Shown here piece by piece: positions 10,262-27,198 of a stretch of DNA of 52,223 bases. This stretch comes from Lachnospiraceae bacterium. Its GTDB lineage: Bacteria; Bacillota; Clostridia; Lachnospirales; Lachnospiraceae. The position numbers and the translations under genes are program-made. Below the pieces are notes generated by a model that saw nothing but the letters and a program-made list of their open reading frames with translations, was not told the origin of the DNA and did no database searches. Within the stretch, counting starts at the first letter, position 1, and the number at the start of each line of letters is the position of its first letter. The stretch covers positions 1 to 52,223 of the forward strand of contig JAFUGL010000047.1 of NCBI GenBank assembly GCA_017469405.1, read 5' to 3'.

Positions 10262-11794
10262 TTATAATTCTTTTATGAACCTTTCAAAATATTTTCTGCC
10301 TTCTTCTGTGCACTTATATACACCTGCGCACTCAAGGACCTTTGAAAATACCTTGCCTATCTCATCCTGAACTATCTTGTGGATATTGGATGCATTTATA
10401 TCATCATAATTTTTCATCCACTCCTTAGCCCAGTCAACGTGTGAAGCAATGCTTTCATCAGATGCCAAATCCTCACCCTTAAGTATAAGCTCCTCCAAAT
10501 GTGCCATCTCGCCCTTAAGTCTTGCAGGAAGAACCGCAAGTCCCATAACCTCGATAAGACCTATGTTTTCCTTCTTGATGTGATGATACTGCGGATGCGG
10601 ATGATACTCGCCCATCGGATGTTCGTCTGTGGTTATGTTATTACGAAGTACAAGGTCAAGTTCGAAAAGATCTCCTCTCATACGTGCAATCGGTGTGATT
10701 GTATTGTGAGGTGTTCCGTCTGTCTCGGCATAGATAAATGCCTCCTCATCGGTATATGCTCTCCACTTTCCAAGGATATGATCCGCAAGCTCTACGATTT
10801 TATCAGCATCCTTTGCCTGAAGTCTTATGGTCGATAACGGCCAGTTAATTATACCTGCATGAACGTCTTCATAACCTGTAACAGTAAATTCCTTCTCATA
10901 AGGAGCCCTCACCATAGGAAACTCATAATTACCACCCTGAAAATGGTCATGGCTTAGGATAGAACCGCCAACTATCGGAAGGTCAGCATTTGAACCGGCA
11001 GTATAATGCGGAAACTGTCCCACAAAATCAAGAAGCTTTACAAAGGTATCCCTGTCTATCTTCATAGGAATATGCTTATCATTAAATATTATACAATGCT
11101 CATTGTAATACACATAAGGAGAATACTGAAGGTTGTAATTCTCTCCACCAAGCGTAATCGGTATGATACGATGATTCTGTCTCGCAGGATGTGAAAAATG
11201 TCCTGCATAGCCTTCATTTTCCCTGCATAAAAGGCAGCTTGGATAGCCGGACTTTTTAGCCTGACCTGCCTTTGCTATATCTCTTGGATCCTTTTCCGGC
11301 TTGGAAAGATTAATGGTAATATCCAAATCTCCAAACTCTGTAGGTGTCTGCCATTTCTCGTCCTTCTTAATTCTGTCAACCCTTATATAATTTGTTGCTC
11401 TTGAAAAATCATAATAATAATCAGTTGCTTCTTGTGGAGACTTTTCAAGATGTGCTGCAAACTCTCTTCTTATAACCGAAGGTGCCGGTGTAAGAAGTCC
11501 CATAATCTTAGTATCATATAAATCCTTATAGGTTATAGTATCCTCCGGCATAATCTTTTTCTCAAAAAGGACGAAAAGCATATCATCAAGGATTTCTGAA
11601 AGCTGTCTTTCATTTGTTTTAGTACCGCAAGAAGCAGCCTCATTATCGCTTACACCCTCCTCGATATATTCCTGCTCCTCAAATAATTCGAGCAGCTTAT
11701 TTCTCGTATATGTTTCATCCTCTTTGTCAACAAGTCCTGCATTAACTCCATAAGCTAAAAGCTCATCTATAAGTCTGCTTATCTTTTCGGTCAT
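10262..11794 (-). CDS. galT: UDP-glucose-hexose-1-phosphate uridylyltransferase (class II)
   Basis: GalT swaps UMP between UDP-glucose and galactose-1-phosphate in the Leloir pathway. The 510-residue length and motifs (KDERWQTP-like KDEKWQTPTEFGDLDITINL, GYPSCLLCRENEGYAG, HFSHPARQNHRIIPI, GSILSHDHFQGG, GEYHPHPQYHHIKKENIGLI, GLAVLPARLKGE) are those of the Firmicute class II enzyme rather than the 350-residue classical one. AGGAGG precedes the ATG. It is the last gene of the galactan run, after galE, galK and the surface GH53 gene, so galactose freed inside the cell ends in UDP-galactose here and is epimerised by GalE. Confidence 0.95.
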   Translation of the reverse strand: MTEKISRLIDELLAYGVNAGLVDKEDETYTRNKLLELFEEQEYIEEGVSDNEAASCGTKTNERQLSEILDDMLFVLFEKKIMPEDTITYKDLYDTKIMGLLTPAPSVIRREFAAHLEKSPQEATDYYYDFSRATNYIRVDRIKKDEKWQTPTEFGDLDITINLSKPEKDPRDIAKAGQAKKSGYPSCLLCRENEGYAGHFSHPARQNHRIIPITLGGENYNLQYSPYVYYNEHCIIFNDKHIPMKIDRDTFVKLLDFVGQFPHYTAGSNADLPIVGGSILSHDHFQGGNYEFPMVRAPYEKEFTVTGYEDVHAGIINWPLSTIRLQAKDADKIVELADHILGKWRAYTDEEAFIYAETDGTPHNTITPIARMRGDLFELDLVLRNNITTDEHPMGEYHPHPQYHHIKKENIGLIEVMGLAVLPARLKGEMAHLEELILKGEDLASDESIASHVDWAKEWMKNYDDINASNIHKIVQDEIGKVFSKVLECAGVYKCTEEGRKYFERFIKEL

Positions 11795-11915: not shown

Positions 11916-13991
11916 CTACTTTGCATATAGATAAAAATCATCCCAGGCACCCCAGCCCTTGGCTTGCGCCTTAACCTTAACACCTATCGTAAGCTCGGTG
12001 CCGTCCTCAGTTATAACTATATTATCTATCTCAGGATTATCCCATTCCTGCCACTTGGTAACTCCTGTCTTTTGCTCAAGACTCTCGTTACCATACTCCG
12101 CATAAAGCACAAAGCTTGCATCATCACCACAATCTCCGCCTTCTATGTATGTTCCGAGAACATACTCTCCGGCATCAAGTGTAACCGTCTGATATACCGT
12201 ATATTCTATATCCTTTTCAGACCAGAAATGAAGACAATATGCTCCGTCATGAACATTACTTGAATCATCCTTACGGCTTATGATATCAGAGTCTATGTTC
12301 CACATACTCATATTCTCATCCTCAAAGCCCGGATTAGCAAGCAGATTTTCCGCAAGAACCTTAACTGTAACAGATACATCATAGCTTTTTCCGTCAACAT
12401 CTACAGTACCGTCTACAACATACTCTCCCGGTGTACTTGCGTCCGCACCGGCAAGACTGTCCTCTATCCAGCTTACCGGCATATCGGTTACAGTTCCGTC
12501 ATTATATCTTATATGAGCAACCTCCGGTAAAGCTATATATTCATCAACATTAATTTCTATATTGTCCGCTGTAACATCTGCCACAGCAAGATCAGCAACC
12601 GCACCTGTTCTTATATATTTATAAATCTTTGCAGATGCAAGAGGATGTCCGTAGAAATCAAACAATGCTTCATTGTCTACTGCCGAACCGCCATAATATT
12701 CGGCTGCGTCCTCATCATAATCCGACGCATAGCTTGCTGCCCAGCCGGAGCCTTTTTCCTCCCATATCTTTTTATTATTTTCATAAACCTCATCAGGATT
12801 TTCGGCATCAGCATAAACTCCTACAGGAATCCAAGCCGGCTCCCAATAAAATATGCCTAAGCCTGCATCACCGCAAAATGCAACTGCATTTGCAGCCTCT
12901 CTTATGGCATCGCACTGACCCTGCTCGGATACATCATAATAAAATGCATCTCCGGCCTTACCTTCGGACTCCGTATTGCCCGAACCGTCACCATCCTCAT
13001 AGGTATGTATATATGAGGTCTCAACAATCATTACCTTCTTGTCGTATTTATTGACAATGGTATTTAATATAGCCTTCATGTTTCCGACCTCACCGTGCCA
13101 ATACGGATAGTATGAAGAAGCAAACACATCATAATCCACACCATACTGCTCAAGATATGAAGCATAAGCAGGATAAGACCCCTTTTCAGGATTGGTAAAA
13201 TGTATCGCTATGAGAATATCCTTATCGATACCTCTTACCGCTTCGCTTCCTGCCTTAAATAATGTGCACATATCCTCCCATTCCTTTTCACCGCAGAAGC
13301 CGGTTGTGGTTTCATTTCCGATCTGAACCATGCCCACATCAACACCTGCATCTATCAGTGCATTAAGAGAATCCTCCGTGTACATTCTTAAAGCAACTGC
13401 TTTTTCATCTACCGATAAATCCTCCCATTCCTTAGGAGCTCTCTGCTTGCTCGGATCAGCCCAGAAGTCAGAATAATGAAAATCAATCAGTACTCGCATG
13501 CCTGCCTTTGTTGCCCAGGTTCCTATCTTTTTTGCAGTCTCAATATCATTGTTACCACCGCCATAAGAATTGCCGTTTTCATCATAAGGATTAACCCATA
13601 CTCTTATACGCACATAATTAACTCCACAATCGTTATAAAGGAAATCAAAAAATCCCTGCTCATCCAATTCATTTCCATCAAAGTCATAATACTTAACACC
13701 GCTGTCGAACTCCGCTGCAATTGAAGATAAATCAGCACCGGTTATAAAATCCTCTGACAGATTATCAATCTTTTCTACGAATACATCTGCCTCCACAGCA
13801 GTATCCTCAGATGAGTTTCCGGCAGGAAGAGGAATATAATCCCCGCCATCTGCGTCCTCCGGCGATGCAGCATCTTCCGAAGTAACCCCTGCATCCGTAT
13901 TATCAGTTGTCTCTTTCTTACCACATCCGACAGCACATAATGTAAGTGTCAAAGCAAGAACTGCTGTCAGTACCTTTTTCTCAAACTTCAT
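11916..13991 (-). CDS. ganB: GH53 endo-beta-1,4-galactanase, surface lipoprotein with Ig-like and carbohydrate-binding tail
   Basis: The N-terminus is a lipoprotein signal with lipobox LCAVGC (Cys23), then an acidic Ser/Thr/Asp linker (25-75). GH53 covers about 80-465: VRIRVWVNPYDENG, LIDFHYSDFWADP, the acid/base Glu227 in QIGNE, the nucleophile Glu324 in VMIVETSY, and FYWEPAWIP. It cuts internal beta-1,4 bonds of galactan or type I arabinogalactan. A bacterial Ig-like domain (about 485-545) and a C-terminal beta-sandwich starting NLLANPGFED, like CBM61 of other GH53 enzymes, complete its 691 residues. It works outside the cell, upstream of the importer. It lies between galK and galT. The domain calls other than GH53 are moderately sure. 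Confidence 0.93.
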   Translation of the reverse strand: MKFEKKVLTAVLALTLTLCAVGCGKKETTDNTDAGVTSEDAASPEDADGGDYIPLPAGNSSEDTAVEADVFVEKIDNLSEDFITGADLSSIAAEFDSGVKYYDFDGNELDEQGFFDFLYNDCGVNYVRIRVWVNPYDENGNSYGGGNNDIETAKKIGTWATKAGMRVLIDFHYSDFWADPSKQRAPKEWEDLSVDEKAVALRMYTEDSLNALIDAGVDVGMVQIGNETTTGFCGEKEWEDMCTLFKAGSEAVRGIDKDILIAIHFTNPEKGSYPAYASYLEQYGVDYDVFASSYYPYWHGEVGNMKAILNTIVNKYDKKVMIVETSYIHTYEDGDGSGNTESEGKAGDAFYYDVSEQGQCDAIREAANAVAFCGDAGLGIFYWEPAWIPVGVYADAENPDEVYENNKKIWEEKGSGWAASYASDYDEDAAEYYGGSAVDNEALFDFYGHPLASAKIYKYIRTGAVADLAVADVTADNIEINVDEYIALPEVAHIRYNDGTVTDMPVSWIEDSLAGADASTPGEYVVDGTVDVDGKSYDVSVTVKVLAENLLANPGFEDENMSMWNIDSDIISRKDDSSNVHDGAYCLHFWSEKDIEYTVYQTVTLDAGEYVLGTYIEGGDCGDDASFVLYAEYGNESLEQKTGVTKWQEWDNPEIDNIVITEDGTELTIGVKVKAQAKGWGAWDDFYLYAK

Positions 13992-14083: not shown

Positions 14084-15376
14084 TTATGCCACCTTTATAC
14101 CGCCGTACTTTCTTATCATAAGCACATTACAAGAGCCTTCTCCAAACAAATCATCCATAGCCTTCTTATATTTCTCAACCACATCATTTTTTACAAATGC
14201 CTGTATGGTTCCCGCAAATCCACCGCCATGCACTCTTGCGACACCCTTATCGCCAAGCACAAGCTCGCTTATGCAAAGACCTACCGAAACATTTTGATGC
14301 TCTACATCATGATTGGTATAAACATTCTGAAGATACTTATAGGATGAATCTCCTGATGCCTTAAAGAGTCTTAAAAACTCTTCAAAATCATTATCCTTCA
14401 ATGCCTTGGCTTCAAGTACTGCACGCTCATTTTCCTCTAAGAAATGAAGTGCACGAAGTGCAGCTCTGTCACCATAAGCTTTTCTAATCTTATTTATTCC
14501 AGCCAAAAGCTCGTCCCTATCAACCTCGCGGAGAACCTCCTTGCTAAAGCAGGAAGCGGCATTTTTCATCTCCACAGGAACAGCCGCATAATCCGGCGTA
14601 AGGTCTGCATGAGAGCCCTTTGTATCAGTTATACACAAGCTGTAGCCTACACTGCTTAGGTCAAACTCGACTCTATCTATAACAGGTTCTTCAGGATTCT
14701 TGAAATCTATCTGGCAGAGTGAACCGACCGAGCATGCCATCTGATCCATAAGTCCGCACGGCTTGCCAAAATAGACATTTTCAGCGTACTGTCCAAGCTT
14801 GGCTATCTCAACTGCATCTATCTTCATATCATTGTAAAGACCGGACAAAATTGTTCCGATTATTGTCTCAAAAGCTGCAGATGAAGAAAGTCCGGAGCCG
14901 CTCAAAACATCACTTGTTATGTAGGCATCAAAACCGCCTATATTATAGCCGGCATTTTTTACACCATAGATTACACCTTTGATAAGTGCTATGGTTGTGC
15001 CCTCTTCACTGTCAACTTTTTCGATATTGTCAAGTGGTATGGTAAGCATATCATATCCCTTGGATAACACTCTTACTGCTTCATTATTTACATTTCCGAC
15101 AATTGCTATAGCATCATCATTAATAGATGCCGCAAGTACATTTCCGTGCTGATGATCCGTATGATTGCCGCCTATCTCACTTCTTCCCGGTGCGCTGTAA
15201 ATCTCTACAGCAGCGTCCATATCGCCATCCGCAAATATACGTGCGTACTCCGAAATTGCATCCACATATCTTTCTCTTTGATATGAAAGCCTGGTTTCAT
15301 CAACATATATATCCTTGATTTTATCATCTAATTTTCCCTCTTTTATCTCAAGGGAAAGCGCTGAAATCTTATTCAT
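14084..15376 (-). CDS. galK: Galactokinase
   Basis: GalK phosphorylates galactose with ATP to galactose-1-phosphate. The 430-residue protein carries the signature APGRSEIGGNHTDHQHGNVL, the GHMP phosphate loop VLSGSGLSSSAAFE, and the C-terminal RVHGGGFAGTIQAFV. It is about 40 residues longer at the N-terminus than the E. coli enzyme, as is common in Lachnospiraceae. AAAGGG precedes the ATG. It lies between galE and the surface galactanase in the same orientation, with gaps of about 90 bases, consistent with one galactan/Leloir transcript. Confidence 0.96.
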   Translation of the reverse strand: MNKISALSLEIKEGKLDDKIKDIYVDETRLSYQRERYVDAISEYARIFADGDMDAAVEIYSAPGRSEIGGNHTDHQHGNVLAASINDDAIAIVGNVNNEAVRVLSKGYDMLTIPLDNIEKVDSEEGTTIALIKGVIYGVKNAGYNIGGFDAYITSDVLSGSGLSSSAAFETIIGTILSGLYNDMKIDAVEIAKLGQYAENVYFGKPCGLMDQMACSVGSLCQIDFKNPEEPVIDRVEFDLSSVGYSLCITDTKGSHADLTPDYAAVPVEMKNAASCFSKEVLREVDRDELLAGINKIRKAYGDRAALRALHFLEENERAVLEAKALKDNDFEEFLRLFKASGDSSYKYLQNVYTNHDVEHQNVSVGLCISELVLGDKGVARVHGGGFAGTIQAFVKNDVVEKYKKAMDDLFGEGSCNVLMIRKYGGIKVA

Positions 15377-15468: not shown

Positions 15469-16491
15469 CTACTCTACTGTATTATACCCGTCAGGATTCA
15501 TGCTCTGCCACTTCCAGGAAGAAGCGCACATCTCATCTATGCCATACTCCGCTTTCCAGCCAAGTTCCTTAAGTGCAAGACTTGCATCCGAATAACATAC
15601 CGGTACATCACCTGCACGTCTTGGTTTAATGACATAAGGCACATCGTGTCCGCATGCCTTGCTAAATGCCTTAACCACATCCAGAACACTCTGACCGTTT
15701 CCGGTACCAAGGTTGTAAACCTTAACACCCGGATTATCCTTAATCTTATTAATAGCTGCCACATGTCCTCTCGCAAGGTCAACTACATGTATATAATCTC
15801 TGATACAGGTTCCGTCCGGTGTATCATAGTCATCGCCAAACACACCCAGCACTTCTCTTTTTCCGATTGCAACCTGAGCCACATAAGGCACGAGATTATT
15901 CGGAATACCCTTAGGATCCTCACCTATAAGTCCGCTCTCATGTGCTCCGATTGGATTAAAGTAACGAAGCAGTATAACATTCCAATCATTATCTGCTGTA
16001 TGGAAGTCCGTAAGAATTTGCTCTATCATATGCTTGGTCCAGCCGTAAGGATTGGTGCATATACCCTTTGGACACTCCTCGGTGATAGGTATAAAAGCAG
16101 GGTCGCCGTAAACCGTTGCCGATGAAGAAAAGATTATATTTTTAACTCCATGCTTTCTAAGTGCATCACATAAGGTAAGTGTTCCGCCTATATTGTTCTG
16201 ATAGTATTCAAGCGGCTTTTCAACCGACTCACCTACCGCCTTAAGTCCTGCAAAATGTATAACGCAGTCAATCTTATTCTCATCCAAAACCTTATTCATG
16301 GCAGCTGCGTCACATATATCCGCTTCATAGAATTTAATCTTCTTTCCGGTAATCTTTTCAACCCTTTCTATAGCCTTAGGGCTTGAATTATAAAGGTTAT
16401 CAACCACAACAACCTCATATCCCTCATTTAATAATTCCACGCAGGTATGACTTCCGATATAACCTGCTCCACCTGTAACTAAAATAGTCAT
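15469..16491 (-). CDS. galE: UDP-glucose 4-epimerase
   Basis: GalE interconverts UDP-galactose and UDP-glucose with bound NAD. The 340-residue short-chain dehydrogenase-type protein has GGAGYIGSHTCVELL near the start, SSSATVYGDP, the catalytic YGWTK motif as NPYGWTKHMIEQIL, and LRYFNPIGAHESGLIGED. I start at ATG 16491, where GAGGAGG stands eight bases upstream; an upstream frame would add 22 unlikely residues. It sits between the sugar-sensor/GGDEF gene and galK. Confidence 0.96.
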   Translation of the reverse strand: MTILVTGGAGYIGSHTCVELLNEGYEVVVVDNLYNSSPKAIERVEKITGKKIKFYEADICDAAAMNKVLDENKIDCVIHFAGLKAVGESVEKPLEYYQNNIGGTLTLCDALRKHGVKNIIFSSSATVYGDPAFIPITEECPKGICTNPYGWTKHMIEQILTDFHTADNDWNVILLRYFNPIGAHESGLIGEDPKGIPNNLVPYVAQVAIGKREVLGVFGDDYDTPDGTCIRDYIHVVDLARGHVAAINKIKDNPGVKVYNLGTGNGQSVLDVVKAFSKACGHDVPYVIKPRRAGDVPVCYSDASLALKELGWKAEYGIDEMCASSWKWQSMNPDGYNTVE

Positions 16492-16578
16492 TTTATAATC
16501 CTCCTCTTTCCTTTTATTCATTATCGTTCTTAAAAAATTTTCATTATTGAAGTGCAAAACCTTTATCTTAAACTCAAT

Positions 16579-18510
16579 TTACACCCTGTTCATTTTCCTT
16601 GCCACTTTGCTTTGATACATAATGTCATCAGCTCTTTGTACAAGCAGGTCAAGGGTGTTTTCTTCATCCGGTTTTCCGATTACATATCCCGTGCTAGCGG
16701 TAAGGGTAATCGGAAGATGCTCCCTTTTACTGATATCCTCTAATCTCTTATCAAGTGAAGCTAATCTGTTTTTTACATCCTCTTCGGAAATATATTTTTC
16801 CAATACAAGGAACTCATCACCGCCGAGTCTGAAGCAAAGTCCCTCCTCCGAAGCAATAGCCATCGAAAGACTCGCGACGGTTTTTATGGCATAATCGCCA
16901 ACCTCATGTCCGTAATTATCATTTATAAATTTCAGCCTGTCTAAATCTATATAAACAACCGTGATTGCCTCACCGTTATCATGCAGTTTTCTGTAAAAGC
17001 TTTCGGCATACTCCGTATATCCGAGTCGGTTATAAAGCCCTGTCATGGAATCATGATTGTAAAGTGCCGAAAGTGCACTGTTTAAGTTAGCAAGCTTACT
17101 TCTGAAGAAAAGCTGTTCCATACCACTTGTAAGTGAATTCATTATGGCAAACAAAAACTGCTGTTCCATAAGATATATGGCATTTTTAATTGCAAAATAT
17201 CCTATGCATTTTTCTCTGAAATGAAGCGGCAAAAACAGGAAATTTTGTCCCTTTTCCTCTGTATCAAAAAGTGGGAAAAGCCCGTTTACCACACGACTTT
17301 CTCCTGCCAGTTTTTCAGCTCTTTCATCACCGTAGGCAAGAGCAAGCATCATATCCTTTGGATATCCGTTAGTCAAAAATTCGGATTCTATATTGGCAAC
17401 CTTTTTCGCCTTTTCCACATCTGCCTCAACATGATCCAGACCTATAAGATGTCTGTCTACCACCTGATACATAGCATCACATCTGAATGCAGGTATGCTC
17501 TCCGGTATGCAGGCAATCATTTCCTCAATTGTATTGACATGTGCCAGTCTTGAATCAAGGGCGAGCTTACAGCCTTCAAAATATCCCTGTTCTATATTCC
17601 AAAGCATATTCCACTTCATCTGAAGCCGCGGATTAACTTCAATATCCGATTCACATCCGCAGCTTTCCCAAAAGATAGGCTTTGCCTTGGTATGTCTGTA
17701 GCTCTCCGGCTCCTTGCCATTCCATATATCCAAAAACATATTTATGCATTCATAGCCTGCATCCTCACGGACATAGCTCATGGTAGATATCCTAGGCGTA
17801 TAATATCTGGACTTATCCAAATCATCAAAGCCCGTAATTATAAAATCATCCGGTGCGGTAAGACCTTTCTTTTCTGCCTCCGCCAAAACTCCTACGGCAA
17901 TATTGTCATTTGCACACACAACAGCATCCGGCATCTTTCCATTTTTGCCATACAACTCTACGAATCCGAAAGCGCCGGTATTATAATCAAAATCATCACT
18001 GTAAAACTCACAGGACTCTTCAGGCAATTCCTTCTCTTTTATATAATCGCGGATCGCTCGTTCTCTTTCCTTACTCTCAAAGTTATCCTCAGGTCCGAGT
18101 ATAAACCAAAAGGTTCTGCTTCCATGATGCTCATAAAGATGCTCAACGATTTTTTTCATGGCAGCATAGTTATCAATTCCGACCGAATAAAATCCATCAT
18201 ACCTGTTATTTATAACTATCCCCGGTACACCGGAATCTCGAACCTTTTGCAGTACGTCACGCCTTACATCATCATCGATGGTATTGTTAAGGTCTATTAC
18301 TACTCCGTCAAAGTCCTTAAAATCAGGAAGATTAAATATATTATATTCACCCTTATTATATTTTCTGTCACTGCTCCAGTTTGCCGAACTGTTAAATATG
18401 TAGAGACTTATATCCTCATCCGTTTCCTTTATCCTCTGCAGCATGCCCGACGGCCACGCATAAGTAAAGTAACGCATCCAGCTCTCCATAACAACCGCAA
18501 CTTTTCTCAT
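16579..18510 (-). CDS. LacI-type sugar-sensing domain fused to a GGDEF diguanylate cyclase
   Basis: Residues 1-290 are a periplasmic-binding-protein type 1 fold as in LacI effector domains (AVVCANDNIAVGVLAEAEKK, FIITGFDDLDKSRYYTPRIS), but with no DNA-binding helix-turn-helix and no signal peptide, so it senses in the cytoplasm. A middle region (about 300-470) may be GAF-like. GGDEF covers about 475-640: LYNRLGY, IDLDRLKFINDNYGHEVGD with Asp522, and an intact RLGGDEF (561-567), so it should make cyclic di-GMP from two GTP. The RxxD inhibitory site is absent (S554 to G557). It lies inside the galactan/Leloir gene run, so galactose or an oligosaccharide is the likely ligand (inference). A GGAG site and a large hairpin (18527-18615) precede it. 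Confidence 0.9.
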   Translation of the reverse strand: MRKVAVVMESWMRYFTYAWPSGMLQRIKETDEDISLYIFNSSANWSSDRKYNKGEYNIFNLPDFKDFDGVVIDLNNTIDDDVRRDVLQKVRDSGVPGIVINNRYDGFYSVGIDNYAAMKKIVEHLYEHHGSRTFWFILGPEDNFESKERERAIRDYIKEKELPEESCEFYSDDFDYNTGAFGFVELYGKNGKMPDAVVCANDNIAVGVLAEAEKKGLTAPDDFIITGFDDLDKSRYYTPRISTMSYVREDAGYECINMFLDIWNGKEPESYRHTKAKPIFWESCGCESDIEVNPRLQMKWNMLWNIEQGYFEGCKLALDSRLAHVNTIEEMIACIPESIPAFRCDAMYQVVDRHLIGLDHVEADVEKAKKVANIESEFLTNGYPKDMMLALAYGDERAEKLAGESRVVNGLFPLFDTEEKGQNFLFLPLHFREKCIGYFAIKNAIYLMEQQFLFAIMNSLTSGMEQLFFRSKLANLNSALSALYNHDSMTGLYNRLGYTEYAESFYRKLHDNGEAITVVYIDLDRLKFINDNYGHEVGDYAIKTVASLSMAIASEEGLCFRLGGDEFLVLEKYISEEDVKNRLASLDKRLEDISKREHLPITLTASTGYVIGKPDEENTLDLLVQRADDIMYQSKVARKMNRV

Positions 18511-18526
18511 AAAATCTCCTTATTCC

Positions 18527-18615
18527 TTCTTCCTGATATATCCAAATTATGTACTCGCATAGCTCGCGTTGCTTAACGCTATGCTAAGCACATAATTTGG
18601 ATATATCAGGAAGAA
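18527..18615. repeat. Long hairpin with a perfect 26-bp stem
   Basis: Bases 18527-18552 and 18590-18615 are exact reverse complements over all 26 positions. Inside, GCATAGC (18557-18563) and GCTATGC (18578-18584) can extend the stem after a small internal loop, or GCGTT/AACGC (18566-18570, 18575-18579) can form a GCTT-capped hairpin instead. It lies between the cytoplasmic GH53 gene and the GGDEF gene, its 3' arm ending six bases before the AAGGAG of the latter. No T-run follows. It may be an RNA processing or stability element, or a small inverted-repeat element. Confidence 0.85.
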
Positions 18616-18652: not shown

Positions 18653-19753
18653 TTAAAAATCTCTTATTGTGGAAAGTGCCGGTAATGCATTTCCGTCATA
18701 ATCAAAGAGTGCCTGATTGGCCCATTCATTTCCTCCCGGACCTTTTTCACCGGTAAATTCAAGTGCCGCCTCTGTTGCCCAGCCACAGCCCGGTACAGGT
18801 ATCCAGCCCGGCTCCCAGTAGAAAAATCCAAGACCTCCGTCTACTGCTTTTATACGATTCATAACATCCAGCATAAAATCAGCCTGTCCCTGCTTGGTCA
18901 TAGGATATGTAAGCTTTTCCAGAAGATCTTCTCGTGTAGCCATGCCCTTAAGCTCATCAATAGGTTTTCCCTCATAGCTTCTGTAGTCTTCCATGCTAAA
19001 GCCCATAGATACCTCTGCAACCACAATTTTTTTGCCGTATCTTTTTGCCATATCCTGCATATTAAATGAAAGTTCATCTAAAGTACCATGCCAGAATGGA
19101 TAATAAGATAGTCCTATTATGTCAAAATCTTCTCCGCGTTTGACAAAATTGTCAAACCATTCCACATACATTTCATTTAATCCACCATTATCTAAGTGTA
19201 TCATAATTGGGACATTTTTTTCAATAGTTCTTACCGCTCTTATACCGGCATTTATAAATAATGCAATCTCATCAAAATTAGGTTTTAAACCATACGGCCA
19301 TAAAAGTCCGTTAGTTATCTCATTTCCAACCTGAACCATGGTAGGAGGCACACTCTCGTCATGGAGTCTTTTCATGGTTTCAAGTGTGAATTCATATACT
19401 GCCTCTTCCAGTTCCTTTACATTTTTTCCTTTCCATGCTTTTGGTATAACCTGTTTTCCCGGGTCTGCCCAGAAATCACTGTAATGTAAATCCAAAAGAA
19501 TACCCATATCATGTGCCTTTGCACGCTTTGAAAGTTCTATGGTTTTATCTATATCATTGGTTCCCGCTCCGTATGGATTGCCATCTTCATCATATGGATC
19601 ATTCCAAAGTCTTAAGCGCACATAGTTTGTTCCATAGTTCTTAAGAATGTCAAGCAGATCCCCTTCTTTTCCGTTATCATAATATTTTGCTCCACACTGT
19701 TCTTCTTCAATCAGTGTAGATATGTCCATTCCTTTGATAAAATTTTCCGTCAT
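18653..19753 (-). CDS. GH53 endo-beta-1,4-galactanase, cytoplasmic
   Basis: This 366-residue protein is a bare GH53 catalytic domain: NYVRLRLWNDPYDEDG, LLDLHYSDFWADPGK, the acid/base Glu145 in QVGNEITNG, the nucleophile Glu247 in VVAEVSM, and FFYWEPGWIPVPGC. It has no signal peptide and no binding module, unlike the lipoprotein paralogue at 11916, so it should shorten imported galacto-oligosaccharides in the cytoplasm, together with the GH42 enzyme. ATG 19753 follows GGAG by seven bases; a few upstream codons (KRRRK) are excluded because they contain that site. A terminator-like hairpin lies upstream at 19850-19877. Confidence 0.93.
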   Translation of the reverse strand: MTENFIKGMDISTLIEEEQCGAKYYDNGKEGDLLDILKNYGTNYVRLRLWNDPYDEDGNPYGAGTNDIDKTIELSKRAKAHDMGILLDLHYSDFWADPGKQVIPKAWKGKNVKELEEAVYEFTLETMKRLHDESVPPTMVQVGNEITNGLLWPYGLKPNFDEIALFINAGIRAVRTIEKNVPIMIHLDNGGLNEMYVEWFDNFVKRGEDFDIIGLSYYPFWHGTLDELSFNMQDMAKRYGKKIVVAEVSMGFSMEDYRSYEGKPIDELKGMATREDLLEKLTYPMTKQGQADFMLDVMNRIKAVDGGLGFFYWEPGWIPVPGCGWATEAALEFTGEKGPGGNEWANQALFDYDGNALPALSTIRDF

Positions 19754-19849
19754 TTTGCGTCTCCTTTTCATATTATAATGTCAATGCTTTATCTGAATTG
19801 CTCCCCTTAGCAAATGTTTTTCCTATTTGTTTAATTTACAGTATTGTAA

Positions 19850-19888: not shown

Positions 19889-20101
19889 CTAGTCAAAATC
19901 TGTTATGCGGTCATACATAACCTTATAACGAAAACGAATCATTTCATTTTTTTCAAGTACATCCTTTTCATTGCCTGTATACTGGCAGCGGATGCAATAA
20001 TACTCATCCTTATCCTTGTCGTAAAACATATCTATGTCCAAATCCCTTAAAAAACAGGAAGGACATCTATAGTTTAATTTGCCTTTTCCACCTTGAGCCA
20101 T
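19889..20101 (-). CDS. Small zinc-ribbon protein
   Basis: The 70-residue protein has CPSC near residue 13 and CIRC about 24 residues later, in YRCPSCFLRDLDIDMFYD and EYYCIRCQYTG, a four-cysteine zinc ribbon. A consensus AAGGAGG ten bases before the ATG shows it is a real gene although it overlaps the end of the 613-residue gene by 28 bases in another frame. The overlap implies translational coupling. Similar short proteins occur in Lachnospiraceae; no function is known to me. It may be an accessory to the neighbouring enzyme or a general housekeeping protein. Confidence 0.8.
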   Translation of the reverse strand: MAQGGKGKLNYRCPSCFLRDLDIDMFYDKDKDEYYCIRCQYTGNEKDVLEKNEMIRFRYKVMYDRITDFD

Positions 20102-21915
20102 GTTGAAAATACCTCCTTAGCTTTAACCTGTTTTTTAACACCGAGAGTAAACATAGGGGAGAATGCATATCCCTCTCTTATGTAACAATCAGCTTCCTTG
20201 GACTCCGTCTTAAGTGAAACCTTTGTCTCTATGGCAGGTATAACTGCTTCGGCAGTTGTTGCGCCCACCACATCAGCCTCACGGCACTTATAAGCATAAT
20301 CAATGCTCTTTTCTTCCGAACCGCCTGTAACCTTAAGGGTAATACCTGTCATATCTTCAGGGTACTCTGTGGTACCGTAGCAGGCTACCATATATTCATT
20401 TAAGGTTACTTCTGCATCAGTATTACTCATCTCCAAAATGTGTCTTTCTATCTGAATGTCTGATGAGCCTTCCTTAAATATCACCTTGGTCTGAAGCTTA
20501 ACCGTCAAATCATAAAACTCTATATCAACCGGATCAAGAGTAAGAGTTCTTACTCCGTTCTCCTCTGAAAAACTTGCATGTGTTCTGCATTGGCAGAGGT
20601 CAACTTCTTCGCCGTTATAGGAAAGCTTGGCACTTCTTACTGTACCTTCACCTGCATAGTGGGTAAAATATCCAGCTCTGTACTTTTCCTGTATAAGGAA
20701 TGGATAGGATGCATCCTGAACATGCTTTGTTCCTATACCAACCTCCCACTTAAGCTTGGCAGCATATGGTCTTAAATCAACGATTGCTCCACCCTGATCC
20801 ATGTTTACACAGGCTCTCATATATGGGTCAACATACCAGAAAAGCTGCTTATTGGAACCATATAAAATGTCCTTCCAAAGAGCACATTCAGGTTCTTCGT
20901 AATGTTTGTTTGCACGATAGAAATCTGCAAACTCTGCCATAGTCATATCTACAAGCTCGCCCTTTTTCTTAAGCTCGCCGTAGTAAGCCATGCCATCCTC
21001 ATAGGATTTTTTAAGAAGCTCATGAGGCTGCTCCCAGCGTCCCATCTTATTAAGCCAGCCCGGTCCGACAAACATCATATTATATGAATATCCGTTATTG
21101 TATTTTGCAAGATGTCTGTACTGGTCAATCAGGTTATAAAGATATGGATATTCCCAGGTCTTTGTATCATAAATCATACCGCGAAGTACATTTTGCGGAT
21201 GAGTACCGAAGTTTGAGCCGTTACCGTCATAGCATGCAAGCAAGTCTCTCGAAAGATGAGGTATGGCAACTATACCGCTATCTTCCTCTTCATTTGCCGC
21301 AGGTGCATGAGTGTTTTGCTTGGAAGGTATCCATGGTGCCCATGGACCTCCGTCAAACAATGTGTACCAGGAATTGTTGCAGGTATGATATGCCTTTGGG
21401 CCTTCCTCCCAGCAGGTGGCTACGGCACATTTTACCATCGGATACTTTTCCTTTATATAATTGGTAAGATCAGCATCCATATAGTAAGATCCTGTTGACT
21501 CAGGATAAAATCCAAAGCGCTCATAGAACTTGCCAAACACATCATCAACTATCTGCTTTTTGTCCTCCATATCAAACATCCAGATACAGAAGTCCTTGGT
21601 CTTATATTTCTCACGAAACTCCTTACAAGGAAGTCCGAGCAATGAAAGTGCTATCTCATCGCCATATTTTTCGTGATCGGCCTTTGCAAGCTCACATGCC
21701 TCATCATTAAAGAGTGATGCATATGTCATCTGAATAGTGGTCTTAAGACCGTTTTTATGTGCAGTTTCCTGCTGAAATTTGAATATATCGAGCGACTCTG
21801 TAAGCAGAGCCTTTCTTCCTATATCCTCCGCCTTGCCATGTCCCGTAACCTTTTCGGCATACTCCGGAACCATCTCAGGACGGTGTATAATATTTACTGC
21901 AAATGTTTTTTCCAT
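20074..21915 (-). CDS. Putative carbohydrate-active protein of unknown family (613 residues)
   Basis: I do not recognise an activity. The start MEKTFAVNIIHRPEMVPEYA, then LLTESLDIFKFQQETAHKNG, LKTTIQMTYASLFND and FYPESTGSYYMDADLTNYIK, looks like a beta/alpha barrel of the NodB-deacetylase or GH57/GH38-like kind (about 1-330). After LFWYVDPYMRACVNMDQGGA the C-terminal 230 residues look beta-rich (KLQTKVIFKEGSSDIQIERH), as in sugar-enzyme sandwich domains. Proteins of the DUF3863/DUF3864 type could be relatives, a guess from memory. No signal peptide, so it is cytoplasmic. I start at ATG 21915 after AGGAGA. It follows the permease genes by 57 bases and so probably acts on imported galactan fragments. 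Confidence 0.7.
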   Translation of the reverse strand: MEKTFAVNIIHRPEMVPEYAEKVTGHGKAEDIGRKALLTESLDIFKFQQETAHKNGLKTTIQMTYASLFNDEACELAKADHEKYGDEIALSLLGLPCKEFREKYKTKDFCIWMFDMEDKKQIVDDVFGKFYERFGFYPESTGSYYMDADLTNYIKEKYPMVKCAVATCWEEGPKAYHTCNNSWYTLFDGGPWAPWIPSKQNTHAPAANEEEDSGIVAIPHLSRDLLACYDGNGSNFGTHPQNVLRGMIYDTKTWEYPYLYNLIDQYRHLAKYNNGYSYNMMFVGPGWLNKMGRWEQPHELLKKSYEDGMAYYGELKKKGELVDMTMAEFADFYRANKHYEEPECALWKDILYGSNKQLFWYVDPYMRACVNMDQGGAIVDLRPYAAKLKWEVGIGTKHVQDASYPFLIQEKYRAGYFTHYAGEGTVRSAKLSYNGEEVDLCQCRTHASFSEENGVRTLTLDPVDIEFYDLTVKLQTKVIFKEGSSDIQIERHILEMSNTDAEVTLNEYMVACYGTTEYPEDMTGITLKVTGGSEEKSIDYAYKCREADVVGATTAEAVIPAIETKVSLKTESKEADCYIREGYAFSPMFTLGVKKQVKAKEVFSTWLKVEKAN

Positions 21916-21972
21916 TATTATTAATCTCCTATATGTTTTGCCACTTGGATAATCCAAACGGCAGAGCATTTA

Positions 21973-22824
21973 TTAACCCTTTACTGAACCGCCGGTTACA
22001 CCTTCTACATAGTACTTCTGCATGATTATGAAAAGTATGGAGATAGGTATTGAAACCAAAAGTCCTCCTGCACAGAATACTGAGAAGTAGTTATTTACCA
22101 GTGAACGGTTTAGCATGTTGTAAAGTCCTATGGCAACTGTCCAGTCGCTTGATATACCGGAGTTGAGCATAAGCTTTGCAAGTACGAAGTCACCCCAAGG
22201 TATAAGGAATGAGCTTATAATCTGGTATACTATAATCGGCTTACAAAGAGGGATGACAACTTTAAGGAAAATTGTAAACTCCGATGCACCCTCAACCTTT
22301 GCTGCTTCTCTTAAGGATGCCGGTATAGTGTCCATAAAGCCCTTTACTATAAGGTATCCAAGTCCGGAACCTGCCGAGTAAACTATAATCATACCAAGGT
22401 GGCTGTTGGTAAGTCCAATGGACTTCATTACGAAATATACAGCTATCATGGAAAGTACGCCCGGGAACATATTTAAGATAAGTGAAAATGTCATTATCTT
22501 CTTTCTTCCCTTGAAACGCATACAGCTAAATGCATAGCTTACCATAAGTACAAATATAGTTGAGATAATACATGTAAATATTGCTATAACAAGCGTATTC
22601 TTAAACCATGTCATATACTGTACAACCGAATCCGGATGCAAGAATATCTTCTTGAAGTTATCAAGTGACCATGATGTCGGGAAGAAATGTGCCTTATTAA
22701 TTCCCGGATATCCCGAAAATGCAGTTACAACCAGCCAAAGAATCGGAATAAGCCATATGACAACCAATATCGCTAAAAAGATATGTGAAATAATTGAACC
22801 GATAATCTTTTTTGTCTTTGCCAT
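21973..22824 (-). CDS. ganQ: ABC transporter permease, MalG/GanQ type
   Basis: The 283-residue inner membrane protein has six predicted membrane segments and the EAA loop REAAKVEGASEFTIFLKVVI, where the shared ATPase docks. The end GVTGGSVKG is typical of MalG-type permeases. Its ATG overlaps the stop of the MalF-type gene by one base (TAATG). With its partner and the binding protein it matches the GanSPQ galacto-oligosaccharide importer of Bacillus subtilis in gene order and context; the symbol is by that analogy. No ATPase gene is near. Confidence 0.92.
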   Translation of the reverse strand: MAKTKKIIGSIISHIFLAILVVIWLIPILWLVVTAFSGYPGINKAHFFPTSWSLDNFKKIFLHPDSVVQYMTWFKNTLVIAIFTCIISTIFVLMVSYAFSCMRFKGRKKIMTFSLILNMFPGVLSMIAVYFVMKSIGLTNSHLGMIIVYSAGSGLGYLIVKGFMDTIPASLREAAKVEGASEFTIFLKVVIPLCKPIIVYQIISSFLIPWGDFVLAKLMLNSGISSDWTVAIGLYNMLNRSLVNNYFSVFCAGGLLVSIPISILFIIMQKYYVEGVTGGSVKG

Positions 22825-24251
22825 TATTGATACTCCTCCTCTCTGTCTCCGGCTATAAGCTTGGAGAATGATATAATCGTAAATACCGCACAGATTATAA
22901 ATACTATGATTCCTATAACAGATGCCATCTTGTAGTTGTAGTACTCATTTGTAAGTCTGAACAGCCATGTTACAAGAAGGTCAACCTCCTTGGCATTGGC
23001 ATTGGCAAGTGCCTGGTCAGGGGTAATATATACATCCTGAGTCAGAAGATAAATTACGTTAAAGTTGTTGATATTCTTTACGAAGTCTGTGATAAGTGCC
23101 GGTCCCTGGATAAATAATACATAAGGCATGGTTATCTTCCAGAAAATCTTCCACTTGCTTGCACCGTCAATCCTTGCACTCTCAAGCTGGTCTGTAGGTA
23201 TATTCATAAGTACACCGGTCGCGATCAGCATCTGGTATGGTATACCAACCCAGATATTGATAATTACTATCATAAACTTAGCCCAATGCGGATCGGTAAG
23301 GAACGGTATGTAATTAAGGTGTGCACTTACAAGTCCGATGTGCTTTAACCAATCGGTAAGTCCGATATTGGAACAAATTGTATTGACTATACCCTGATCT
23401 CCGAAGAAGTTTCTTACAAGAAGAAGGGTTACAAACTGAGGTACTGCTATCGCTACTATGAATAAGCTTCTCCACATCTTAGGAAGCTTTGTGGTTTTCT
23501 TATTAATGAGCATTGCAAGAAGTATACCGCCTATAAAGGTTGTAAGTGTTGCAAGCACTGCCCATGTAAGTGTCCAACCAAGTATTTTTCTAAATGCATA
23601 TCCGAAGTAGTTACCCATACCTTCGGTAAATAATTTCTTGAAGTTTGAAAATCCTACCCAATCCAAAAGAGAATTAGGGGGCATATGATTCTGGTCGTAA
23701 TTTGTAAAAGCTATTGCTATAAGAACAAATATAGGAATAACATTCATAAGAACTACACCAATTGCAGGAAGTGTTAAAAGTGTAATATGAAACTTTTTAC
23801 CTATAATTGACTTTACTGTTTCTTTATTGGAATCTATGTGCTTACCAAATTTCTTCTGCTGTTGAAGTTCATAAACAGCTTTGATATTATAGATGTAAAA
23901 CAATATAAAGCAAACTATTAAAAACAATGCAATTATTGAGTTAAGTAATATAAGGAATGAATTGTCATAATCATTTACTGTCTGCTGCATGGTTAACGGA
24001 TCAAATACTGCCTCACGCTGAACTGTTCCAAGTGTTCCAAATTTCGCAAGGTTAGGAGCTGCATAAAAAATACACATTATTATGAATGCTATCTCAATAA
24101 GTGTAACAAATATTCCTTTAAGCCACTGACCCTTAAATGTATAACCTGCACCCATAAACAGAAGTGAACATTTGACCCCGGCATCGCCCTTTACGACTGC
24201 CTTGCCAAAATCCGCAAAGTATTTAAGCGGATTACTCTTTTTTTCTCTCAT
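22824..24251 (-). CDS. ganP: ABC transporter permease, MalF/GanP type
   Basis: This 475-residue membrane protein has two extra N-terminal membrane segments (about 50-75 and 105-135) and a six-segment MalF core with the EAA loop LESARIDGASKWKIFWKITM. The length and N-terminal extension (KYFADFGKAVVKGDAGVKCS) are those of Firmicute MalF/GanP proteins. I start at ATG 24251 after GAGGGGG; a longer frame would run through the hairpin at 24284-24328. It pairs with the permease at 21973 and the lipoprotein at 24405. Confidence 0.92.
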   Translation of the reverse strand: MREKKSNPLKYFADFGKAVVKGDAGVKCSLLFMGAGYTFKGQWLKGIFVTLIEIAFIIMCIFYAAPNLAKFGTLGTVQREAVFDPLTMQQTVNDYDNSFLILLNSIIALFLIVCFILFYIYNIKAVYELQQQKKFGKHIDSNKETVKSIIGKKFHITLLTLPAIGVVLMNVIPIFVLIAIAFTNYDQNHMPPNSLLDWVGFSNFKKLFTEGMGNYFGYAFRKILGWTLTWAVLATLTTFIGGILLAMLINKKTTKLPKMWRSLFIVAIAVPQFVTLLLVRNFFGDQGIVNTICSNIGLTDWLKHIGLVSAHLNYIPFLTDPHWAKFMIVIINIWVGIPYQMLIATGVLMNIPTDQLESARIDGASKWKIFWKITMPYVLFIQGPALITDFVKNINNFNVIYLLTQDVYITPDQALANANAKEVDLLVTWLFRLTNEYYNYKMASVIGIIVFIICAVFTIISFSKLIAGDREEEYQ

Positions 24252-24283
24252 TTCCGTCCCCCTCTTTTCTTTTTTATTGATAG

Positions 24284-24328
24284 CAATAGCCCCATACGCC
24301 ATCCGGCGGATGATGTATGAGGCTATTG
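24284..24328 (-). repeat. Intercistronic hairpin between binding-protein and permease genes
   Basis: CAATAGCC/GGCTATTG (8 bp), CATAC/GTATG (5 bp) and CATCC/GGATG (5 bp) stack into one long hairpin with a GGC loop and small internal mismatches. No T-run follows. In sugar ABC operons such hairpins after the binding-protein gene protect the upstream mRNA, giving more binding protein than permease; that role is inferred here. Confidence 0.75.
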
Positions 24329-24404: not shown

Positions 24405-25742
24405 CTACTGTACAGGTGCTGTAATACCTTCTACAGCATTGTCAAGTAATGTCTGAAGATCTGTACCATCAGGATTTCCTGAGATAAGAGTAAGTCCAAG
24501 AGTATTTGCAGGCTCCCAGTAGTTGCCGCCAACTCTCTGTGGTACTGCATAGTCAGCCTGTTTTGCAAGTGCTGCAATTGCAGGATTTGACTGAACATCG
24601 CTTGAAGCTGCTGCCTTTGCATTTGCAGGGCCAAGGCTTCTTGCATTAAATCTTGCTATCTGATTTTCTTCATTTGTTAAGAACTCAGCAAGAATCATAG
24701 CCCAACCAACGTTCTTTGAATGTGAATTTACACCGACTAACTTGTATCCTGAGAATGATGCCATCTGAACCTGCTTACCTGCTACTGTATATGTAGGAAG
24801 CTTAGTTGCTGCATATCCATCACCCCATGCTGCCTTAATTGTATCTGCATTCCAAGTACCGCTTACTGCTGCTGCAATCTTTCCTTCAGTAATACCTGTA
24901 ACGATATCAGCATCGCCTGCATTTAAGAATGCACTTGACTTTCCTATATCAATGATAGCCTGAGCTACATCAGTTGCACCATCAGCATTCCAAGTACATG
25001 AGTTTGTTACACCGTCATCATTTAAAGTAACATCATATCCAGCTCCTTTGAAGAATGAGTAGTTGTACCAAGCTCCTGAAACTTCCATAGCAACCTGCTT
25101 ACCTGCTGCATCTGCAACCTCAAGCATCTTGTCAAGTGACTCAACATCTGATTCTGAGAATACTGATGAGTCATAGTATAAGAAGTAACCATTATCAGCT
25201 GTCATTGGGTAAGCGTAAAGCTTTCCGTTCATTGAAGCTGCCTCAACTGCACCTGCTAAAGTCTCAGCCTTTACATCATATGTATAAGTGCTTGCAACCT
25301 CCTGAAGAGCACCGGCATTTACGAGTTCATTCATCTGGTCATCAGCAAATGTAAATACATCAGCTGCTGCTTCAATATCTGTTAAAACTGTATCCTTGGC
25401 ATCTGCCTCTGAACAAGCACCAAGCTTAATGTCAAATGTTACATCCGGATACTGCTTAGCAAATTCATCAATAAGTCCCTGTGTAAAAACCTGATCTTCT
25501 TCTGAAGCCCATACTGTAAGAGATACAGTACCATCGGTTGCAGCTATAAGATTACTAACCGCATCTGAATTTGTACCACTGCTTGCCTGAGTAGTGTCGC
25601 TGTCTGAATCAGACTTCTGAGTTTCTGTTGCTGCAGTAGAATCTTTAGAATCTTTAGAATCATTATCATCCTTACCACAGCCTGTTAAACATCCGGCAAC
25701 TAAGGTTGTTGCCATAGCTAACGCTAAAAATCTTTTTTTCAT
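24405..25742 (-). CDS. ganS: Sugar ABC transporter solute-binding lipoprotein (GanS/MalE type)
   Basis: The 445-residue protein has a lipoprotein signal (lipobox LTGC after VAGC), a linker rich in Asp, Ser and Lys with a KDSKDS repeat, then a type 1 extracellular solute-binding domain (SLTVWASEEDQVFTQGLIDE, AVSGTWNADTIKAAWGDGY, YWEPANTLGLTLISGNPDG). Anchored outside the membrane it would capture galacto-oligosaccharides for the GanP/GanQ-like permeases. It is the first gene of the run, directly behind a strong promoter and a LacI-type operator, and AAGGGAGG precedes the ATG. The sugar is inferred from the locus. Confidence 0.92.
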   Translation of the reverse strand: MKKRFLALAMATTLVAGCLTGCGKDDNDSKDSKDSTAATETQKSDSDSDTTQASSGTNSDAVSNLIAATDGTVSLTVWASEEDQVFTQGLIDEFAKQYPDVTFDIKLGACSEADAKDTVLTDIEAAADVFTFADDQMNELVNAGALQEVASTYTYDVKAETLAGAVEAASMNGKLYAYPMTADNGYFLYYDSSVFSESDVESLDKMLEVADAAGKQVAMEVSGAWYNYSFFKGAGYDVTLNDDGVTNSCTWNADGATDVAQAIIDIGKSSAFLNAGDADIVTGITEGKIAAAVSGTWNADTIKAAWGDGYAATKLPTYTVAGKQVQMASFSGYKLVGVNSHSKNVGWAMILAEFLTNEENQIARFNARSLGPANAKAAASSDVQSNPAIAALAKQADYAVPQRVGGNYWEPANTLGLTLISGNPDGTDLQTLLDNAVEGITAPVQ

Positions 25743-25834: not shown

Positions 25835-25852
25835 TGCGCAACCGGTTGTTCA
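25835..25852. promoter_or_regulatory. LacI-family operator at the galactan operon promoter
   Basis: TGCGCAACCGGTTGTTCA, with the perfect core CAACCGGTTG, lies 7 bases after the -10 box of the binding-protein gene. The same 18 bases, with one change, occur at 27070-27087 at the GH42 promoter. A further partial copy, GCGCAACC, is at 25823-25830. The central CG palindrome is what LacI-family regulators bind, so the LacI gene between the two sites is the obvious candidate. Confidence 0.8.
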
Positions 25853-27069: not shown

Positions 27070-27087
27070 TGCGCAACCGATTGTTCA
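27070..27087. promoter_or_regulatory. LacI-family operator at the GH42 promoter
   Basis: TGCGCAACCGATTGTTCA differs from the site at 25835 by one base and overlaps the expected start point of the GH42 transcript. A further palindrome, TTGCGCAA, lies at 27106-27113 and could be an accessory half-site. Confidence 0.8.
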
Positions 27088-27198
27088 TTTTTAGACTATC
27101 ACTAGTTGCGCAAACTGTCAAGAAGAAAAAATAAATGTAACAAGGATAACGCCATCTGATATAAAAAAATAATGAAATTTATTAGGAGGTTATTATAT

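Follow-up and report, generated by a model that had tools for sequence, protein, structure and literature searches.

Within the regulatory network of cyclic di-GMP (c-di-GMP), sugars have been described to act through several routes. These include the EIIA-Glc/PdeS system of Vibrio cholerae, where the sugar input arrives through the phosphotransferase system (PTS) on a phosphodiesterase (PMC8846402), and two examples from Pseudomonas aeruginosa, the SagS route taken by glucose-6-phosphate (PMC8544897) and the LecA route taken by raffinose (PMC4855137). In all of them c-di-GMP is altered by sugars or sugar phosphates, as is proposed here for the product of a gene found at positions 16,579-18,510 (minus strand) of contig JAFUGL010000047.1 from Lachnospiraceae bacterium, whose 52,223 nucleotides were analysed as a whole (hereafter, the window). 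However, the described systems use the PTS, a two-component sensor or a lectin, and none is presented, in the available parts of these papers, as a cyclase with a LacI-type domain of its own.

The gene encodes a soluble protein of 643 amino acids, in which an N-terminal LacI-type ligand-binding domain without helix-turn-helix (HTH) is followed by a GAF-like middle domain and an intact GGDEF domain. On balance, this sensor-cyclase is probably a cytoplasmic one-component sensor of galacto-oligosaccharides that belongs to the galactan pathway and sets the level of c-di-GMP. According to the sections consulted of a review of c-di-GMP signalling (PMC8846402), the Periplas_BP domain may bind solutes, sugars included, and stands among those inputs of c-di-GMP enzymes that have no validated role, the only sugar example being the one that proceeds via the PTS. 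A cyclase gene tied to one polysaccharide pathway offers for this input a defined candidate ligand, an enzyme partner and a likely output.

Domain architecture and ligand pocket

The preliminary description of this DNA had recognised a LacI-like effector fold without DNA-binding part, joined to an intact RLGGDEF cyclase lacking RxxD, and domain, fold and motif searches confirmed this architecture. Both a profile match (Peripla_BP_3, residues 122-274, minus strand 17,689-18,147) and the fold comparison assign the effector-binding fold of the LacI type to the N-terminal domain, which spans approximately residues 1-290. The HTH of LacI proteins (PF00356) has no match in the protein, the N-terminus of which corresponds to the first strand of the periplasmic-binding-protein (PBP) fold; as the HTH is missing, a role as a transcription factor was set aside. 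The middle domain (residues 288-484, minus strand 17,059-17,649) appears to have a GAF-like fold and a signalling helix in the Foldseek comparison, where the best match reached an E-value of 0.008, with many GAF domains listed and none at E ≤ 0.001, for a model with a predicted local distance difference test score (pLDDT) of 67. Pfam and PDB sequence searches of this domain gave insignificant matches only, with no GAF match above the Pfam cut-off.

The GGDEF domain (residues 485-639, minus strand 16,594-17,058) is matched by PF00990 with an E-value of 5e-32, and its catalytic and metal motifs are complete: DLDRLKFINDNYGHEVGD (DxDxxKxxND..GH..GD) and RLGGDEF. A GGDEF-type motif was detected in 57 of 61 aligned sensor-family proteins, and the RxxD I-site, which is frequent in diguanylate cyclases but not required, is missing from all 57 as well as from the window protein. 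The residue that we take to mark the GGDEF domains producing cyclic GMP-AMP (cGAMP) is not serine in this protein, so that c-di-GMP is the expected product. Hydropathy shows neither a signal peptide nor a membrane stretch; a periplasmic or membrane sensor was consequently set aside, and the sensor is predicted to reside in the cytoplasm. Directly after the PBP domain lies an SCGC motif (residues 283-286, positions 17,653-17,664), each cysteine of which is kept in 60 of the 61 aligned rows.

Regarding the ligand pocket, all 61 aligned rows have R149 and D229, and 60 have N201. These three residues align with an R, an N and a D of the LacI ancestor chain 9nt3, presumably R197, N246 and D274 of LacI. 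A loss of pocket residues, which had been named beforehand as an argument against a sugar ligand, is not observed, the equivalents of the three LacI residues being kept. Additionally, the residues E/D9, W11, R13, W19, N40, N44, W45 and N76 of the N-lobe loops do not vary among the 17 galactan-set rows, which have E at position 9. Within the sister set (n = 21), W11 occurs in 17 rows, R13 in 16, W19 in 16, N40 in 14, N44 in 14, W45 in 15 and N76 in 17, while among the 23 other rows W11 is found in five and the remaining loop residues are outside the four commonest residues at their positions. Such aromatic-rich loops, as modelled, fit the stacking of a sugar, perhaps over more than one ring; part of this conservation pattern could be explained by shared ancestry alone.

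Association with galactan use

The gene was confirmed to sit between the galactanase gene, which encodes a signal-less enzyme of glycoside hydrolase family 53 (GH53), and galE. A scan of genome contigs revealed 14 related loci with 46-98% identity. In ten of these (L065-L074) GH53 adjoins the gene, together with the operon neighbours, the contig of L074 being labelled Muribaculum and probably mis-binned. In three others (Butyrivibrio hungatei twice and Butyrivibrio sp. M55) the gene lies within a GanSPQ-LacI-GH42 locus; L076, the Butyrivibrio locus tested, has a two-component system and an alpha-amylase gene at its flanks. The last one (L075) carries the gene among glycosyltransferase genes, and a GH53 open reading frame (ORF) of 372 amino acids is located on another contig of the same genome. 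Within the genus of the window, five of 37 genomes contain the gene at 59% identity or more, and the same five contain a short adjacent GH53 ORF (366-394 amino acids, over the cut-off), while G026 has longer GH53 ORFs only and is missing the sensor-cyclase gene. Homologues of the sensor part (E ≤ 1e-20) are found in 30 of the 37 genomes, versus six with GH53 over the cut-off, indicating that the galactan link is a property of the clade and not of the architecture.

The association extends beyond physical linkage. In a family sample of 397 genomes, which overlaps with the genome-contig loci (L073 and L126, for instance, are identical in the tree), the clade was delimited at E ≤ 1e-60 and comprises 26 genes in 25 genomes of 24 genera. 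GH53, scored as presence in the genome plus positions for the rows listed, occurs in 22 of the 25 clade genomes and in 63 of the 372 genomes without the clade (Fisher p 2e-13), a probability that, like the Fisher values that follow, overstates independence because the sampled genomes are related, a point to be set against the association. After removal of the seven linked or fused genomes, GH53 is still present in 15/18 versus 63/372 (p 5e-9). The xylanase family GH10, taken as a control, occurs in 6/25 versus 49/372 (p 0.12). The polygalacturonase family GH28 occurs in 10/25 versus 70/372 (p 0.015), a difference that is gone among GH53-positive genomes (p 0.45), and the GH53 link holds both in GH28-positive genomes (9/10 versus 23/70, p 9e-4) and in GH28-negative ones (13/15 versus 40/302, p 2e-9). 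The two controls leave the GH53 association unexplained. As for gene position, seven of the 26 clade genes lie within 1.6 kb of GH53 or are fused to it, and one is at a contig end.

Fusion to the galactanase is the most surprising part of the finding. PBP, GGDEF and GH53 are encoded by one uninterrupted ORF of 1133-1143 amino acids in L140 (genus g42) and in L145 and L147 (genus g40). The fused GH53 parts match their family with E-values from 5e-96 to 6e-101 and retain the GNE and V[AV]E motifs of the window GH53, which we take to contain the catalytic residues. The fusion ORFs have no hydrophobic N-terminus and continue for approximately 170 residues beyond the GH53 part, a stretch that in L147 has no significant Pfam match. 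The order within the fusions, from cyclase to GH53, is the reverse of that in the operon, and the branch of the fusions is apart from that of the operons in both trees, which are quick trees without bootstrap. Five gains or losses of GH53 linkage are required by the tree, pointing either to several gains or to an old linkage with repeated losses. The genes next to the L140 fusion encode a GGDEF-EAL protein and a further PBP-GGDEF. In L138 the copy of the gene is split, and after it comes a GH53 that has a Big_4 domain, like the second GH53 of the window.

In a class-wide sample of 311 genomes, the clade was found in two, the window's own and G586, which belongs to another family. There, a GH53 ORF 64% identical to that of the window ends 8 bp ahead of the gene for a sensor protein of 488 amino acids (L156, 1453-2919, minus strand) that consists of the PBP domain and the middle region, with no GGDEF; a convergent ORF terminates at the same point. 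The location of this cyclase-less sensor behind GH53 implies that the bond between sensor and galactanase can outlast the bond between sensor and cyclase. Synteny, co-occurrence, the fusions and this sensor bear out the tie to galactan use that had been proposed from the window.

Several observations weigh against a galactan signal that is read into c-di-GMP. Three of the 25 clade genomes are without GH53, and a laxer search of those three found none; conversely, 63 of the 85 GH53 genomes are without the sensor-cyclase gene. For 18 of the 26 clade genes, the surrounding DNA that was fetched, about 7 kb or as far as the contig end, contains no GH53. The 20 flanking proteins chosen from 11 of these 18 loci are, according to Pfam, mostly housekeeping or unrelated, the exceptions being a glycosyltransferase, a carbohydrate phosphorylase, a fucose pyrophosphorylase, a methyl-accepting chemotaxis protein and a GGDEF-EAL protein. 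Two of the 18 have sugar genes close by: ABC sugar permease genes near L127, and a galE 70% identical to that of the window 0.6 kb downstream in L142. GH53 is also absent from the fetched flanks of the three Butyrivibrio loci, and from all 20 of the stretches that surround 21 further sensor-family genes in the genus; these represent 21 of 58 homologue rows and were scanned with the galactan-operon models, other sugar genes being partly looked for, and ten chosen proteins from six of the loci were given to Pfam. The preliminary description had regarded homologues located mostly away from sugar loci as evidence against its proposal. This is the situation of the genus sensor family (no GH53 in the 20 stretches; permeases in L098) and of the 18 unlinked clade genes, but not that of the relatives with 46-98% identity nor of the genome-wide co-occurrence. 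On the side of the pocket, the structure model is at its least certain in the loops (residues 1-16 and 41-59), and the LacI repressor of the operon has MDDG and SFYNS in place of the equivalents of N201 and D229, so that it may read a different ligand from the sensor-cyclase; a ligand common to both proteins is unsupported for the same reason. Finally, the homologue of G586 has no GGDEF, and c-di-GMP is thus not always the output, as judged from its sequence.

From these observations it could be argued that the sensor reads another small molecule of pectin feeders, such as a nucleoside, a general carbon signal or a different pectin sugar, and that the tie to galactan reflects niche or operon position. 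The unlinked clade genes with their mostly housekeeping flanks, the three clade genomes missing GH53 and the mild enrichment of GH28 are in agreement with this, as is the fact that purines are also bound by LacI-type domains, PurR being among the sensor matches. However, the signal is not carried by the GH10 and GH28 controls, and both the GH53 fusion and the GGDEF-less sensor beside GH53 point to galactan itself, which makes this explanation unlikely. Somewhat less probable still is that c-di-GMP has a local or secondary role, the protein acting by contact on the galactanase or the operon and its GGDEF domain serving perhaps as a dimeriser or nucleotide sensor. The physical fusion of GH53 in three genomes and the persistence of the G586 sensor beside GH53 though GGDEF is absent would suit such a role, and the 30 GGDEF matches of the genome (29 over the cut-off) leave room for local signalling; against it, the window protein and 17/17 galactan-set rows retain intact catalytic motifs, which speaks for cyclase activity being under selection. 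That an ordinary PBP-GGDEF paralogue landed in the operon by chance and was kept by co-transcription, with no ligand from the galactan pathway, is improbable, since, common as sensor-part homologues are (the 30 of 37 genus genomes, not all of which need carry GGDEF) and devoid of GH53 as the 20 stretches around the others proved, the linkage is kept across several genera down to approximately 46-50% identity, recurs as a fusion on a separate tree branch, and the co-occurrence holds where the genes are unlinked. An autoinducer-2 (AI-2) receptor was set aside as well: the survey PMC12268683, in the part available, ties AI-2 to the Peripla_BP_4 proteins LsrB and LuxP and not to PBP-GGDEF fusions.

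Other PBP-GGDEF genes of the genus have neighbours of different kinds. In L098 (610-9278), the only one of the 20 stretches with permeases, the gene lies beside ABC sugar permeases and an FGGY kinase, and in L081 (4507-8931) beside surface-polysaccharide genes; judging from this context, further members of the family may have ties to different sugars. Two further ones are divergently adjoined by an HD_5 (HD-GYP-like) gene (L080, 8458-9501; L083, 5649-6692), with ORFs of the same size in the L085-L087 loci, and could form with it a pair of cyclase and phosphodiesterase.

The surrounding locus and the proposed mechanism

The genes of the locus follow one another on the minus strand, beginning with that of a LacI-family repressor with HTH (25,964-26,968). 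The effector of this repressor is maybe unusual, as the usual N and D contact residues are missing. Next come the genes of a solute-binding protein whose best NCBIfam match is GanS, below the cut-off of that model (24,405-25,742), of the GanP-like (22,824-24,302) and GanQ-like (21,973-22,824) ABC sugar permeases, of a 631-amino-acid protein of no known family (20,074-21,969), a small ORF, and the GH53 endo-galactanase gene (18,653-19,771), the product of which has no hydrophobic N-terminus and is probably cytosolic. After the sensor-cyclase gene, the series continues with galE, for UDP-galactose epimerase (15,469-16,557, the true start being probably an inner ATG near 16,491), the galactokinase gene galK (14,084-15,376), a second GH53 with a lipoprotein-like N-terminus and a Big_4 domain, predicted to be extracellular (11,916-13,991), and galT, for galactose-1-phosphate uridylyltransferase (10,262-11,794). 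The GH42 beta-galactosidase gene (27,172-29,181, plus strand) is oriented opposite to the rest.

A LacI-type operator-like palindrome (GCGCAACCGGTTGTTC) is located upstream of ganS (25,838-25,849), and a second one between lacI and GH42 (27,073-27,084). At one mismatch or fewer, the window contains four matches to this type of palindrome versus 0.38 expected, two of the four being one site read on both strands and another lying inside ganS. The site upstream of ganS is present, at two mismatches or fewer, in 11 of the 14 related loci, ganS not being within the DNA retrieved in the other three. No such palindrome precedes GH53 or the sensor-cyclase gene in the window. In the three closest relatives the gap between GH53 and the cyclase measures 10-15 bp, so that both genes should share one transcript. 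In the window, an insert between them contains a 29-nucleotide inverted repeat (18,527-18,615; arms 97% complementary, spacer of 31 nucleotides), the arm of which has no other copy in the window at three mismatches or fewer and no exact copy in the loci of other genomes among 155 loci.

The 631-amino-acid protein is soluble, and searches against Pfam, NCBIfam and PDB sequences gave nothing significant for it. Its conservation in the remoter galactan loci (L067 and L070-L074), at 85-87%, exceeds that of the permeases, GH53 and the cyclase, and the protein is possibly an undescribed enzyme of galactan use. The small ORF (19,889-20,101), located between the gene of this protein, the end of which it overlaps, and GH53, encodes 70 amino acids with two CxxC pairs, zinc-ribbon-like by eye and without a Pfam match. 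A search of the window with Rfam gave no matches. Farther away, at 39,095-40,795, lies the second c-di-GMP gene of the window, whose product combines a response regulator receiver with GGDEF and EAL.

The scheme that can be drawn from domain anatomy, motifs, operon place, co-occurrence, fusions and pocket conservation proposes a ligand, a direction, an activity, an output and a compartment for the sensor-cyclase. Beta-1,4-galactan would be cleaved outside the cell by the extracellular GH53, and the resulting galacto-oligosaccharides would enter via GanSPQ, to be degraded by the cytosolic GH53 and GH42, with the galactose taken up by GalK, GalT and GalE. The LacI-type domain would most likely bind an imported beta-1,4-galacto-oligosaccharide, galactobiose or slightly longer, and not a sugar in the medium. 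The preliminary description had put galactose and galacto-oligosaccharide forward alike; the oligosaccharide is favoured over free galactose because the tightest partner of the gene is a signal-less endo-galactanase. Closure of the lobes could then be transmitted through the GAF-like domain and its helix to the GGDEF dimer, altering the synthesis of c-di-GMP.

With regard to the output, the genome (91.5% complete) has a single PilZ match, which carries a YcgR-type N-domain and lies in a flagellar-chemotaxis cluster, between genes that we take to be FlhF/FlhG-like and cheB-cheA-cheW, and near presumed flhA and sigma-70 family genes (names beyond the Pfam families). As the sole PilZ match is of the YcgR type and situated in such a cluster, a flagellar brake is the likeliest output: this protein would be the receiver, and galactan feeding would alter swimming. 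The direction towards which we lean is that the ligand activates the cyclase, raises c-di-GMP and slows swimming, so that the cells would stay on the pectin particle, and that the signal is switched off as the operon-mate or fused GH53 consumes the ligand.

The sensor-cyclase might hence work as a self-resetting switch that asks "am I on galactan?", in which the sensor reads the substrate or product of the cytosolic GH53 and the linked or fused enzyme destroys the signal, a tentative idea that we would not yet back against its negation. If true, this switch would choose between feeding in place and swimming, and a fibre-digesting enzyme would form part of a second-messenger circuit. A cyclase of this kind would further hint at how Lachnospiraceae of the gut and rumen couple attachment to the fibre being eaten. 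As to function as a whole, the pathway is well supported, the ligand class appears plausible and the mechanism is the conjectural part; the locus suggests that galactan feeding may be wired into the stick-or-swim decision.

Comparison with known systems

To our knowledge, neither a direct sugar-gated diguanylate cyclase nor a fusion of a glycoside hydrolase with a diguanylate cyclase was known before, and the proposed switch, if true, would be the first case of both. The preliminary description knew of no characterised pathway of this kind, and this still holds among the literature matches listed: these, which are the best rows of longer lists and mostly leave subscription papers and preprints outside their coverage, include no cyclase linked to galactan or to a LacI-type domain, and no description of a galactanase-cyclase fusion was found in the literature searched. 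One protein said to combine GH53 and GGDEF (PMC5457731) was set aside, as it is given there, in the part available, with another architecture, of HAMP and GGDEF, and 81-92% identity to diguanylate cyclases of Kluyvera and Enterobacter. A comparative genomics study of Butyrivibrio names "diguanylate cyclase (GGDEF)" among the genes unique to Pseudobutyrivibrio, without context in the text available (PMC6912079).

Among sugar loci, the galactan loci of Roseburia bring GH53 together with ABC transport and regulators of the LacI type, as the window does, and no diguanylate cyclase is named for them in the part available, the term "diguanylate" having no occurrence in the main text of the paper (PMC5320581). 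The aml operon of Actinoplanes, with the LacI-type AmlR, the maltase AmlE and a GGDEF-EAL gene, is, like the window locus, a sugar operon with a c-di-GMP gene and a repressor of the LacI type over it; it differs in that sensor and GGDEF are separate proteins, the GGDEF-EAL protein has a transmembrane domain and the link, as far as it is described in the available part, is transcriptional (PMC6828939).

Among proteins, the LacI/GalR-family repressors (CcpA, LacI, CelR) have the effector domain in common with the sensor-cyclase. They act on DNA, whereas the sensor-cyclase, with GAF-like and GGDEF domains in place of an HTH, would act on a second messenger. SpdE, STM1987, DcpA and Lcd1, as presented in the consulted portions of PMC8846402, resemble the window protein in having a small-molecule sensor in line with GGDEF, but unlike it they sense amino acids or nucleotides via Cache or GAF domains. 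The finding extends these ligand-sensing diguanylate cyclases rather than forming a separate kind.

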